Origin: Lewinella sp. 4G2
Lineage (GTDB): Bacteria > Bacteroidota > Bacteroidia > Chitinophagales > Saprospiraceae
Direction: 5' to 3'
Assembly: GCF_001625015.1 (NCBI RefSeq)
Contig: NZ_LVWJ02000014.1
Span: 3,410,001 to 3,474,000, forward strand
Length of the DNA stretch: 64,000 bases
Shown here: positions 1,489 to 5,239 of the stretch, piece by piece
Position numbering within the stretch: the first letter of the stretch is position 1
Layout: each line of letters begins with the position of its first letter
Made by a program: the position numbers and the translations under genes
Notes under the pieces: generated by a model
Databases searched by the model: none
Told to the model about the DNA's origin: nothing
Seen by the model: the letters and a program-made list of their open reading frames with translations, nothing else

Positions 1489-3900
1489 ATGTTGAGTATC
1501 TCCCTCGCTTATTCCATCGAAGACCAACCCGCGGCCCAGCAAATTGCGGATGACCTGGAAGGTTTCGTCACCATAAATCACTTCGGCGTCGAGACCACCA
1601 CCGGCGGCGCGCTGATGGCTGGTATGTTGGACGCCGAGTCCGGGCCACTCATCGTACTCCTCAGCGATCATTTTCTGCGCAACGCTAACTGTTTGTTCGG
1701 CGCGTCATCCTTTCTAATCGGTCGGCGGGACACCCTCCTGGTTTCTTTGAAAACCCGGACGTACGATGAAGACTTGCAGGAAATTGTCGTCGTACAAACC
1801 GATCTGTCGGATGATGAGCAACGGGCTGTCTACGAGAATTACTGGAATGATTCCTTCCGGGATCTAACCGACAAGACCAAAGACCTCAACCTTAATCAAA
1901 ACAATCCTTTCCGCCGCTACCTCGACCGGGTCCGTACCATCCAGCAGGAGTTGCCCGAAATACTGAACCACCTCGCTGATTCTCCGCACACCACTCAGTC
2001 TGATCTGGAATCCGGGGCCTACGCAGACCTGTTTTCTCTCATCAAAGCTCCCGAGGTCCATCACTCTTTTGCGGCGCACCAGGCGGAGCAATTTGCTGGT
2101 GTTCCCGGCATCCAACTGCTATCCAATCAGGGCGCTGACGCAGGTGCAGAGGAAGTGAGTGGGGAAGGTCCGCCAAAAGTTGAAACGGCTCCTCTGGCTA
2201 AAAATAAATCCCCTAAGAAAAAGGCAAGTATCCCCAAGCAAGAGCTGCCGTTGGAGGAAGAAAGTGATGCACCCGTTTACGATGTCGATCCGGACACCCA
2301 AGCAAAACTTTGGATCAGCCGCGCGTGGAACCTATACGAAGATGGCGATGCGGAGGCCGGACTCGCCCTGCTGGCCGGCGGGCGCGAACAACTCCCCGAT
2401 TACCCCGACGTGGCCTACAACTACGCCTTAATGCTGGCCATGGACTCGGAGTCACCCGAGATCGCCCTCCTCGAGCTTAATAAAATGCTGGAGGACTTCC
2501 ACGACCACAAGGGCGCGCTATTCCTCAGCGGAGAATTAAGCCTGCTGTTGGAAGACTACGAGAGCGCTTACCTGGATTGGCTGCAACTTAGGGACGTTGA
2601 TCCCCTGTACCCCGACCTCAATTACCGGCTCGGCTGCCTCGTTAGTGAGCAGTTTCCCAACCGGAGTACGGAGGCCATCACTTACTTCCGCCGGGCAGTC
2701 CGGGATGAGCCCCAAAATGGTGACGCCCGCTACCGCTACGGGATGATGTTGTACACTCACCAGGGATCCACGAAAAAAGCCATCAAATGGCTGAAGCGTG
2801 CCATCGACATTACGCCGGGGCACGCAGCGGCTCATTACGCCCTGGCCGTGCTCATGCACCGGCGGGGTAAACTAACGGCTGCCAGGAATTTCTACCGCAC
2901 GGCCGTTCACCTGGATTCGACTTACGATACGGCGGTGAACCAGCAGGCCTTCGCTCAGAAACTGCGCTTTAAGTCAGATACGTCCAACCGGGGCAAGAAG
3001 GCCATCGAACGGATGCAGGCTCGAATTGAAGAGTTGGAGGCGGCCCTTTTGCGGGAGGGTGGGGTAGCCCCTTCCCATCTCACGGCACCCGCGTCAGCGC
3101 CCAAAACGAAAGGACTGGAAGGTAAAACCGCCCTTATTAGTGGTGCCACTTCGGGTATTGGACGGGCAACTTCAGTCAGACTCGCCGCAGCGGGTTGCCG
3201 ACTGATCCTGCTCGCCAGAAGAACCGCCCGGCTGGAAGAACTGGCAGCAGAACTTGACGCCAACTACGGCACCGAATGCCACCTCATCACGGCGGATGTG
3301 CGGGACCGTGAAAAACTCTCAAGAAAGCTTAGCGCTCTCCCGGAAGACTGGAAAAAAATCGATCTGCTGCTAAATAACGCCGGAAAGGCTAAGGGATTTG
3401 ACCCCATCCACGAAGGCGATTATGACCACTGGGATGAGATGATTGACGTCAACCTAAAGGGTCTCCTGACACTTACTCGGGAGGTGAGCCCACTAATGGT
3501 CTCGCGCGGAGCAGGTACAATTATCAATGTCTGTAGCACGGCTGGTAAGGAAGTATACCCAAATGGTAACGTGTATTGTGCCACCAAACACGCCGTGGAT
3601 GCCCTCACGTACGCAATGCGCCTCGATTTGGTGAAATACGGGATCCGCGTCGGCCAGATCTGCCCCGCACACGTCGAAGAAACTGAATTTGCGGTGGTGC
3701 GCTTCGACGGCGATCGCCAACGCGCCAAGATCTACGAGGACTTCCAACCACTGCGCTCGCGGGACGTTGCCGATGCCGTATACTTCATGTTCGCTCAACC
3801 GGCGCACGTGAATATCATGGACGTAGTTCTGCAGGGTACCCAGCAAGCCAGCTCGACGGTGGTGGACCGCAGTGGTAGAGAAAAATTTAAGCCAGCATAA
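1489..3900 (+). CDS. TIR-like / TPR / short-chain dehydrogenase fusion protein
   Basis: This 803-aa protein has three parts. Residues 1-95 look TIR-like: a strand SISLAYS followed by ED, an amphipathic helix, then GPLIVLLSDHFLRNANCL. The usual WCxxE of TIR NADases aligns with NCLFG (67-71), so the catalytic Glu appears absent. After a low-complexity linker (about 212-262) come tetratricopeptide-type helical repeats (about 270-490) and a short coiled coil. Residues 545-790 are a complete classical SDR resembling YdfG: SGATSGIG (551-558) for NAD(P), NNAG (629-632), Ser683 and YCATK (Tyr696, Lys700). All SDR catalytic residues are present, so an active oxidoreductase is expected; substrate unknown. 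The SDR and TPR calls are firm, the TIR call is by resemblance. A copy of the GCGCTG..GCAGGTGC repeat lies in the linker. tmk starts 10 nt downstream. Confidence 0.82.
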   Translation: MLSISLAYSIEDQPAAQQIADDLEGFVTINHFGVETTTGGALMAGMLDAESGPLIVLLSDHFLRNANCLFGASSFLIGRRDTLLVSLKTRTYDEDLQEIVVVQTDLSDDEQRAVYENYWNDSFRDLTDKTKDLNLNQNNPFRRYLDRVRTIQQELPEILNHLADSPHTTQSDLESGAYADLFSLIKAPEVHHSFAAHQAEQFAGVPGIQLLSNQGADAGAEEVSGEGPPKVETAPLAKNKSPKKKASIPKQELPLEEESDAPVYDVDPDTQAKLWISRAWNLYEDGDAEAGLALLAGGREQLPDYPDVAYNYALMLAMDSESPEIALLELNKMLEDFHDHKGALFLSGELSLLLEDYESAYLDWLQLRDVDPLYPDLNYRLGCLVSEQFPNRSTEAITYFRRAVRDEPQNGDARYRYGMMLYTHQGSTKKAIKWLKRAIDITPGHAAAHYALAVLMHRRGKLTAARNFYRTAVHLDSTYDTAVNQQAFAQKLRFKSDTSNRGKKAIERMQARIEELEAALLREGGVAPSHLTAPASAPKTKGLEGKTALISGATSGIGRATSVRLAAAGCRLILLARRTARLEELAAELDANYGTECHLITADVRDREKLSRKLSALPEDWKKIDLLLNNAGKAKGFDPIHEGDYDHWDEMIDVNLKGLLTLTREVSPLMVSRGAGTIINVCSTAGKEVYPNGNVYCATKHAVDALTYAMRLDLVKYGIRVGQICPAHVEETEFAVVRFDGDRQRAKIYEDFQPLRSRDVADAVYFMFAQPAHVNIMDVVLQGTQQASSTVVDRSGREKFKPA
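2131..2162 (+). repeat. Interspersed GCGCTGCCGCAGGTGC-type repeat, intragenic copy
   Basis: GGCGCTGACGCAGGTGC followed by AGAGGAAGTGAGTGGGG matches the copies at 16455 and 60797 over about 32 nt. Here it lies in frame within the linker of the TIR-like/TPR/SDR gene and encodes GADAGAEEVSGE. Confidence 0.7.
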
Positions 3901-3910
3901 CCCCTGCAAT

Positions 3911-4534
3911 ATGAGCCGACCCTTATTTATCGTCGTGGAAGGACTCGACGGCAGTGGTAAAACCACCCAGATTGAATTGTTGCGAGACCAGCTGCAGGGT
4001 CTGGGCCAAGCCTGCTACCTGACGGGAGAGCCGACTGATTTACCCACGGGAAAATTCCTTCGCTCCATCTTAAGTGGCGCCATTGAAGCCGACATGAAAA
4101 CGGTAGCCGCTCTCTTTGCTGCCGATCGCATTGAACACCTATTTCACCCCACCGAAGGCATTCTGGCTAAATTGGAAGCTGGCTACCACGTGATCGCCAG
4201 CCGCTATTATTTCTCTAGCCTGGCGTACCAAAGTGAATACGCGAATCCAAACTGGATTGCTTCCATCAACGCCCTGGCGAAGCAAACTTTGCCGGCGGAT
4301 CTTACCCTCTTCCTGGACCTCGACCCGGAAGTGAGTCTGCAAAGAATTGACGCTAGAGGGGGAGACAAAGAGATCTACGAGACCCGCGAGAAATTGCAAC
4401 ACGTACGCGAAAGCTTCCATTTGGCCTTCGAACATTTTGGAGTGGGAGAGAATATTCGTACAGTCGATGCTAGCGGCTCAGTACCCGAAGTAGCGGATGC
4501 TATTTGGTCGGCGGTTACGGCCGTGCTTGACTAA
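3911..4534 (+). CDS. tmk: Thymidylate (dTMP) kinase
   Basis: This 207-aa P-loop kinase phosphorylates dTMP to dTDP in the cytosol. The Walker A GLDGSGKT is at residues 11-18, SRYYFSSLAYQ matches the DR(Y/H)..S..AYQ substrate motif, and LDLDPEVSLQRI..RGG fits the LID/base region. In the first motif the usual Asp of DR is Ser. The frame is open upstream to 3872 but that would overlap the preceding gene; ATG 3911 gives the normal family length and puts the P-loop in its usual place. It lies 10 nt after the fusion gene and probably shares its transcript. A large hairpin begins at its stop codon. Confidence 0.93.
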   Translation: MSRPLFIVVEGLDGSGKTTQIELLRDQLQGLGQACYLTGEPTDLPTGKFLRSILSGAIEADMKTVAALFAADRIEHLFHPTEGILAKLEAGYHVIASRYYFSSLAYQSEYANPNWIASINALAKQTLPADLTLFLDLDPEVSLQRIDARGGDKEIYETREKLQHVRESFHLAFEHFGVGENIRTVDASGSVPEVADAIWSAVTAVLD

Positions 4535-4585: not shown

Positions 4586-4609
4586 CTTAGTTTGATAAAT
4601 AAACTAACT

Positions 4610-5239
4610 ATGTTTTCTGAAGAGACCGCTCTAATTCTTGTCGACCTGCAGGTGGACTTCATGCCCACCGGCATGCTTCCCGTACTGGAAGCCGACCAGG
4701 TAATCCCGCTGGCCAACGCTGCTATGCAGAAATACCGTACGGTGGTGGCTACGCAGGATTGGCACCCGGCAAACCATGGCAGTTTTGCGGCGAACCATCC
4801 GTGGCGTAAACCCGGTCAGGTAATTGATCTGCACGGATTGCCACAAGTGTTGTGGCCCATACACTGCGTACAGGATACCTGGGGATCTGAATTCGTTGCG
4901 GAGCTAAACGTTGACGGGATTACCAAGGTGTTTCGAAAGGGTACCGACCCGGAAATCGATAGCTACAGCGGTTTCTACGACAATGGTCACCGCAAAGCCA
5001 CGGGAATGGGGGAGTGGCTGCGCGAACAAGGAATTACGGAAGTTCACGTCCTCGGAGTAGCGACTGACTACTGCGTAAAATTCACCGCGCTGGATGCCGT
5101 CGGAGAGGGATTCAATACCGTCTTACTTGAGGACGCCTGCCGTGGGGTAAATATGAACGCTGGTGACGTTGAAGCAGCCATCGAGGAAATGACAGAAGCG
5201 GGGGTGAGCATTAGCTCAACAGTTGCTATAACTGCCTAG
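4610..5239 (+). CDS. pncA: Nicotinamidase
   Basis: This 209-aa isochorismatase-fold hydrolase converts nicotinamide to nicotinate in NAD salvage. From ATG 4610 the catalytic triad is Asp12 (VDLQVDF), Lys109 (FRKGTD) and Cys154 (ATDYCVKF); metal ligands are Asp49, His51 and His55 (DWHPANH). An in-frame TTG at 4592 would add six residues, but ATG fits the family better. The gene overlaps the convergent hydrolase by 14 nt at its 3' end. Location close to a TIR-like protein is noteworthy because TIR NADases release nicotinamide. Confidence 0.94.
   Translation: MFSEETALILVDLQVDFMPTGMLPVLEADQVIPLANAAMQKYRTVVATQDWHPANHGSFAANHPWRKPGQVIDLHGLPQVLWPIHCVQDTWGSEFVAELNVDGITKVFRKGTDPEIDSYSGFYDNGHRKATGMGEWLREQGITEVHVLGVATDYCVKFTALDAVGEGFNTVLLEDACRGVNMNAGDVEAAIEEMTEAGVSISSTVAITA

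Follow-up and report, generated by a model that had tools for sequence, protein, structure and literature searches.

Bacterial TIR domains are known mainly as the NAD-cleaving parts of defence systems. In the passages of the TIR survey PMC7075850 searched here, MyD88 is presented as an adapter and the word "dehydrogenase" has no occurrence (0). Among the open-licence PMC papers listed by our searches there was no description of a TIR-SDR or of a TIR-TPR-SDR protein. Here we analyze a protein of this kind, in which a TIR domain and tetratricopeptide repeats (TPR) precede a short-chain dehydrogenase (SDR). It is encoded in the window, i.e., the whole analyzed stretch of 64,000 nucleotides from Lewinella sp. 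4G2.

Domain organization of the fusion protein

The protein is read from a single open frame of 803 aa with an ATG start (ORF listing). The first-pass annotation had proposed that this one frame joins a TIR-like domain, TPR and an SDR, and this make-up was confirmed by the frame itself (1489-3900), by the Pfam matches adh_short and TPR_16 and by the TIR matches of the relatives. The features are as follows:

1489..3900, + strand: whole gene of the TIR-TPR-SDR fusion, 803 aa (ORF; 8 full-length relatives)
1489..2097, + strand: TIR domain with C-terminal helices, residues 1-203, without the catalytic Glu
1699..1701, + strand: codon of Gly71 at the TIR catalytic Glu column, N-C-L-F-G (codon read; family alignment)
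2125..2280, + strand: linker, residues 213-264, predicted to be disordered (pLDDT mostly <50 in the model)
2290..2952, + strand: TPR superhelix, residues 268-488 (Pfam TPR_16 and others; model helices)
2992..3057, + strand: single predicted helix at the TPR/SDR junction, residues 502-523 (structure model)
3121..3897, + strand: SDR domain, residues 545-803 (Pfam adh_short, 187 bits; catalytic residues in 52/52 rows of alignment A2)
3535..3588, + strand: SDR active site with Ser683 (3535-3537), Tyr696 (3574-3576) and Lys700 (3586-3588), codons read
3911..4534, + strand: thymidylate kinase gene, next downstream of the fusion (Pfam Thymidylate_kin)

The TPR assignment is clear, with 56.8 bits for TPR_16 against a Pfam cut-off of 32.7. 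Eight relatives are full length (identity 44-61%, query coverage 100%), and the one from N. antarctica is named SDR family oxidoreductase by NCBI. The model of the full-length fusion has a pTM of 0.41 and places the three domains relative to each other without confidence.

The N-terminal part is a TIR domain

With Pfam alone the TIR domain is missed: the TIR_2 score is 14.8 bits for the full window protein and 17.5 bits for residues 1-200, both below the cut-off of 28, and scanning the complete own genome with PF13676 gave 0 matches. A Foldseek search alone also gave 0 matches at E <= 0.001. The assignment was settled through the relatives. TIR_2 matches 33 of 47 relatives' N-termini at E <= 0.1 (best 8e-7), the family profile finds the MyD88 TIR in the PDB, and with hhalign it matches canonical Glu-bearing bacterial TIRs with an E of 5.2e-21 over 180 columns. 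The N-terminus is moreover predicted with high confidence to fold as a TIR; a prediction of another fold had been named beforehand as what would speak against the assignment. Thus both the flavodoxin-like TIR fold and sequence homology to known TIRs were found, and the N-terminal part is a TIR domain.

Loss of the catalytic glutamate

The sequence NCLFG had been noted to lack the catalytic Glu of TIR NADases, and the family bears this out. In the window protein the C-x-x-E region of the NADases carries Gly71 instead, and 71 of the 75 family members have no Glu there (54/57 in the first set, 5/5 further fused proteins and 12/13 further members). Among the 57 sequences the column is occupied by Gly (25), Arg (15), Asn (5), Glu (3), Asp (3), His (2), Gln (2), Ser (1) and Thr (1). 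The four members with Glu are P0005, L062, L064 and L210, and four members have Asp (3 among the 57, 1 among the 13 further). In contrast, all 12 other TIR proteins which the same profile found in the same bacterial family retain the Glu (Fisher p 1e-11, the rows not being independent). None of these 12, all of which were checked, has an SDR match or an SDR domain. Glu is also present in three canonical TIRs from other families (L082, L084 and L085), which are not part of the 12/12 count. In the TIR alignment A3, which leaves out L059 and L077 and includes no P proteins, Tyr115 and Trp119 are the only invariant residues, and none of the acidic residues is conserved throughout. Judged from the sequences, the TIR domain of the fusion is probably catalytically dead and not an NADase.

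We also estimated dN/dS of the TIR part, which was computable in five of seven pairs and gave 0.03, 0.13, 0.07, 0.06 and 0.16, values that are rough because dS exceeds 1 in three of the five pairs. For the SDR part the values were 0.04-0.10 in five pairs. The TIR domain is under purifying selection and does not have the look of a relic.

The SDR module

As had been claimed, the SDR is complete, with Ser683, Tyr696 and Lys700 at their expected positions. The Pfam family adh_short matches residues 546-735 well above its cut-off of 26.6 bits. Gly552, Gly556, Gly558, Asn655, Ser683, Tyr696 and Lys700 are invariant in all rows of A2 (one fused locus, L062, is left out of this alignment), and the domain is thus a classical SDR. 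The earlier designation as YdfG-type holds in part: YdfG is the nearest NCBIfam model, but with 207.1 bits the protein stays far under the equivalog cut-off of NF007829 (411), and we therefore call it YdfG-like and not YdfG.

The nearest PDB matches (E 7.6e-52 to 1.5e-46) are 2nwq, 3rku (YMR226C), 3asu and 6ixj (sulfoacetaldehyde reductase). Since the nearest solved relatives are YdfG-like enzymes, YMR226C and sulfoacetaldehyde reductase, the SDR is likely to act on small hydroxy acids or aldehydes. By similarity to the YdfG-like enzymes, 3-hydroxy acids in particular are putative substrates. After the second strand the protein has Arg-Arg (577-578) and no Asp, which we take to indicate a preference for NADP(H), and by these residues the SDR is probably NADP(H)-dependent.

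Within the own genome the closest other SDR shares just 35% identity with it. Of the 164 family genomes that match this SDR at E <= 1e-70, 163 do so exactly once. In the phylum, 169 of 296 genomes contain it at E <= 1e-60, and most of the matches listed are frames of about 250-330 aa. Three loci outside the family with long SDR frames (L219-L221, among the matches listed) gave 0 matches with the TIR and TPR profiles.

Distribution of fused, split and single forms

Of 298 genomes of the order, 50 contain the N-terminus, each with one match and all within the window's own family. A profile search of that family matched 119 of 199 genomes, 113 of them strongly (E <= 1e-20). Of 395 phylum genomes nine matched, three from the own family and six from outside; the three outside matches that were read are the canonical Glu-bearing proteins mentioned above, namely AlbA-TIR, TIR-TPR and TIR-NB-ARC. 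Two weak matches outside the phylum cover the TPR part alone. Within the own family we also observed canonical Glu-bearing TIRs with the effector-associated domain EAD11 (L112, L113, L115 and L119) and one with LRR-Roc-COR (L118).

Homologues with the same domain order, a search for which had been proposed, are common. The relatives in named records (48 loci) belong to Neolewinella, Lewinella, Phaeodactylibacter, Flavilitoribacter and other Saprospiraceae and Bacteroidota. The SDR is in the same frame in 44 of 48 fetched loci, these 44 coming from separate genomes; two are cut by a contig end (L058, L077). In the remaining two (L067 and L076, one genus) the TIR-TPR and the SDR are adjoining genes on the same strand, 8 and 11 bases apart. 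In the census of the 199 family genomes TIR and SDR share one frame in at least 85 of the 113 with a strong TIR match, among the matches listed. These counts, together with fused genes in genomes of few contigs (one in G170, four in G179), rule out a fusion produced by sequencing error.

The other genomes of the 113 comprise, among the matches listed, 2 split cases, 2 with two pieces on one contig, 4 with pieces on two contigs and 20 without an SDR. The genes in two pieces on one contig are interrupted by a run of N (L213) and by one in-frame stop (L214), and were taken as they stand. From the 20 genomes without an SDR among the matches listed we read 15. Six of them are in fact fused (L217, L073, L120, L122, L123 and L124), and six end at a contig edge, one of which (L210) nevertheless still has part of the SDR. 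The other three are L207, L208 and L209. In L209 the SDR frame stops before the catalytic Tyr, and L208 is the only one of the 15 without any SDR.

Two of these exceptions, L208 and L207, deserve a closer description. In G356, a complete genome (completeness 100) that carries L208, an intact TIR-TPR gene lies behind the redoxin lipoprotein described below and is followed by a gene on the opposite strand; no orthologous SDR was found there at 1e-70, and the best SDR anywhere in this genome is 34% identical. In G323 (L207) the TIR-TPR is joined to an SDR with degraded cofactor and catalytic motifs, i.e., a pseudo-TIR on a pseudo-SDR. TIR-TPR can therefore occur in proteins that lack a functional SDR.

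Conversely, no strong TIR match was present in 57 of 150 genomes with the SDR, among the matches listed, and 56 of these 57 have an SDR frame of 311 aa or less. In a quick SDR tree, whose support is weak, the fused state needs six changes and several fused rows are deepest; an AU test did not reject a single clade of all fused and split rows (p 0.093). This weakly supported tree would suit one early fusion and hints at a fused ancestry with several later losses.

Gene neighbourhood

A PALP-family gene precedes the fusion gene by 44 bases. On the other side lies the thymidylate kinase gene, which occupies the +1 position in the window and in each of the 14 loci fetched from the window's genus. 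Outside this genus, 30 of 34 loci with the fused gene encode a redoxin-domain lipoprotein (Trp-Cys-Pro-Asn-Cys; Pfam Redoxin, AhpC-TSA) upstream in the same orientation. In 29 it is the immediate neighbour; in L057 a gap of 1176 bases lies between. The same lipoprotein gene lies upstream of the standalone SDR in 19 of 22 loci. Since it precedes both the fused gene and the standalone SDR, TIR-TPR sits between the lipoprotein gene and the SDR in an operon that also exists without TIR-TPR. In the window's own genus this link was found in 0 of 14 loci; the own genome encodes its lipoprotein elsewhere (G000:C11:33682-34980, 54% identical to the protein of L045).

The upstream lipoprotein is short in L051, L060 and L066 (271-289 aa) and seems to have lost its redoxin part there; that of L051 has no Pfam match. 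A further conserved gene of about 175-180 aa, exemplified by L049:4114-4647 and without a Pfam match there, is located two places upstream of the SDR or the fusion, in 16 of 22 standalone-SDR loci and in 18 relatives' loci of the fusion. Two genes downstream of the fusion in the window there is an isochorismatase-family, nicotinamidase-like (NAD salvage) gene (4592-5239, + strand). A link to NAD by way of this gene was considered and dropped, as it did not form a cluster shared by four or more of the relatives' loci, and we treat its position as probably due to chance. The same applies to the upstream PALP gene as a functional neighbour.

Possible function of the fusion

From the sequences and models we know the domain make-up, the loss of the TIR Glu, the kept SDR residues, the purifying selection on the TIR, the kept operon position and the existence of fused and split forms. 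As the TIR Glu is usually lost and the fusion is kept under selection, the TIR domain is probably there to assemble or regulate a metabolic enzyme rather than to destroy NAD. Our preferred explanation, to which we assign a probability of roughly 0.55, is that of a core short-chain oxidoreductase with a catalytically dead TIR and TPR as accessory modules which would assemble, place or switch the SDR. Control of an oxidoreductase by a TIR-TPR sensor, as originally proposed, is the most likely reading. The SDR would be the catalytic part of the protein. The TIR would be a non-catalytic module, acting by TIR-TIR assembly, as the MyD88 scaffold does, or by binding a nucleotide without cleaving it, and the TPR could bind a partner and supply the surface for it, so that both together would assemble, place or switch the oxidoreductase. 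Against this accessory control speak G356 and G323, the four Glu and four Asp members, the lipoprotein link of 0/14 in the own genus and the pTM of 0.41. More tentatively, and with less than even odds, a bacterial pseudo-TIR may have moved from immunity to the role of a scaffold or ligand-sensing switch of a metabolic oxidoreductase, with the TPR choosing the partner, as a counterpart of the MyD88 type.

TIR-TPR might also have a function of its own, the SDR being attached for co-expression or stability only and not controlled. The genome without an orthologous SDR, the degenerate SDR of G323, the split genes at L067 and L076 and the many relatives with the SDR alone are in favour of such independence. 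We nevertheless consider it doubtful, because one frame is kept in at least 85 of the 113 genomes and two more have neighbouring genes, and because the 15 loci read for want of an SDR among the matches listed turned out to be fused (6) or to end at contig edges (6), with only L208 devoid of an SDR. That the TIR part is a decaying relic would agree with the lost Glu and with the lower identity to the window of the TIR (18-35%) than of the SDR (53-77%). Its dN/dS of 0.03-0.16, the open frame kept in at least 85/113 genomes and the high-confidence predicted TIR fold, however, make decay hardly credible.

Defence proteins often contain TIR and TPR parts, and the nearest canonical TIRs carry EAD11, NB-ARC or Roc-COR partners. 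One could thus imagine an anti-phage protein whose TIR-TPR senses infection and whose SDR is a toxic NAD(P)-consuming effector. Such a role is improbable given the single match per genome, the same upstream gene across genera, the lost Glu and the relationship of the SDR to the standalone enzyme of 169/296 phylum genomes. In addition, none of six proteins (the fusion, both proteins of the split pair and the lipoprotein from L067, and two neighbours from L049) matched any family of PADLOC-DB 2.0.0 at E <= 0.1. We give similarly little credence to a TIR which is still an enzyme or nucleotide-transfer domain by means of another residue and feeds or senses NAD for the SDR. The 8 of 75 members with Glu or Asp at this column and the intact predicted fold would fit such a TIR, but 40 of 57 members have Gly or Arg there, and apart from Tyr115 and Trp119 no residue is invariant in A3, neither of these being acidic.

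A mostly Glu-less TIR family fused to an otherwise standalone dehydrogenase is a clean natural case for the role of a bacterial TIR that does not cleave. Natural controls exist within one bacterial family, in the form of fused, split, SDR-only and TIR-TPR-only genomes.

Comparison with known systems

Compared with the bacterial TIR NADases (PdTIR, 3h16; BtTir, 7uxr; AbTIR, 8g83/7uwg) the fusion family is without the catalytic Glu in 71/75 members and is joined to an SDR. It resembles the TIR of the animal scaffold MyD88, which is the top PDB sequence match of the family profile (E 1.8e-5), but the fusion is bacterial, has no death domain and is joined to an enzyme; the match points to TIR homology and not to a common role. 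The TIR-TPR protein L084 from another family of the phylum has the same order of TIR and TPR and carries Tyr-Gln-Tyr-Trp where the fusion family has Tyr115 and Trp119. Unlike the fusion family it keeps the Glu (N-C-M-Y-E) and is without an SDR. With the YdfG-like SDRs (2nwq, 3rku, 3asu and 6ixj) the protein shares the classical SDR domain with its catalytic residues, and it differs from them by the N-terminal TIR-TPR and, with 207 against 411 bits, from the YdfG equivalog.
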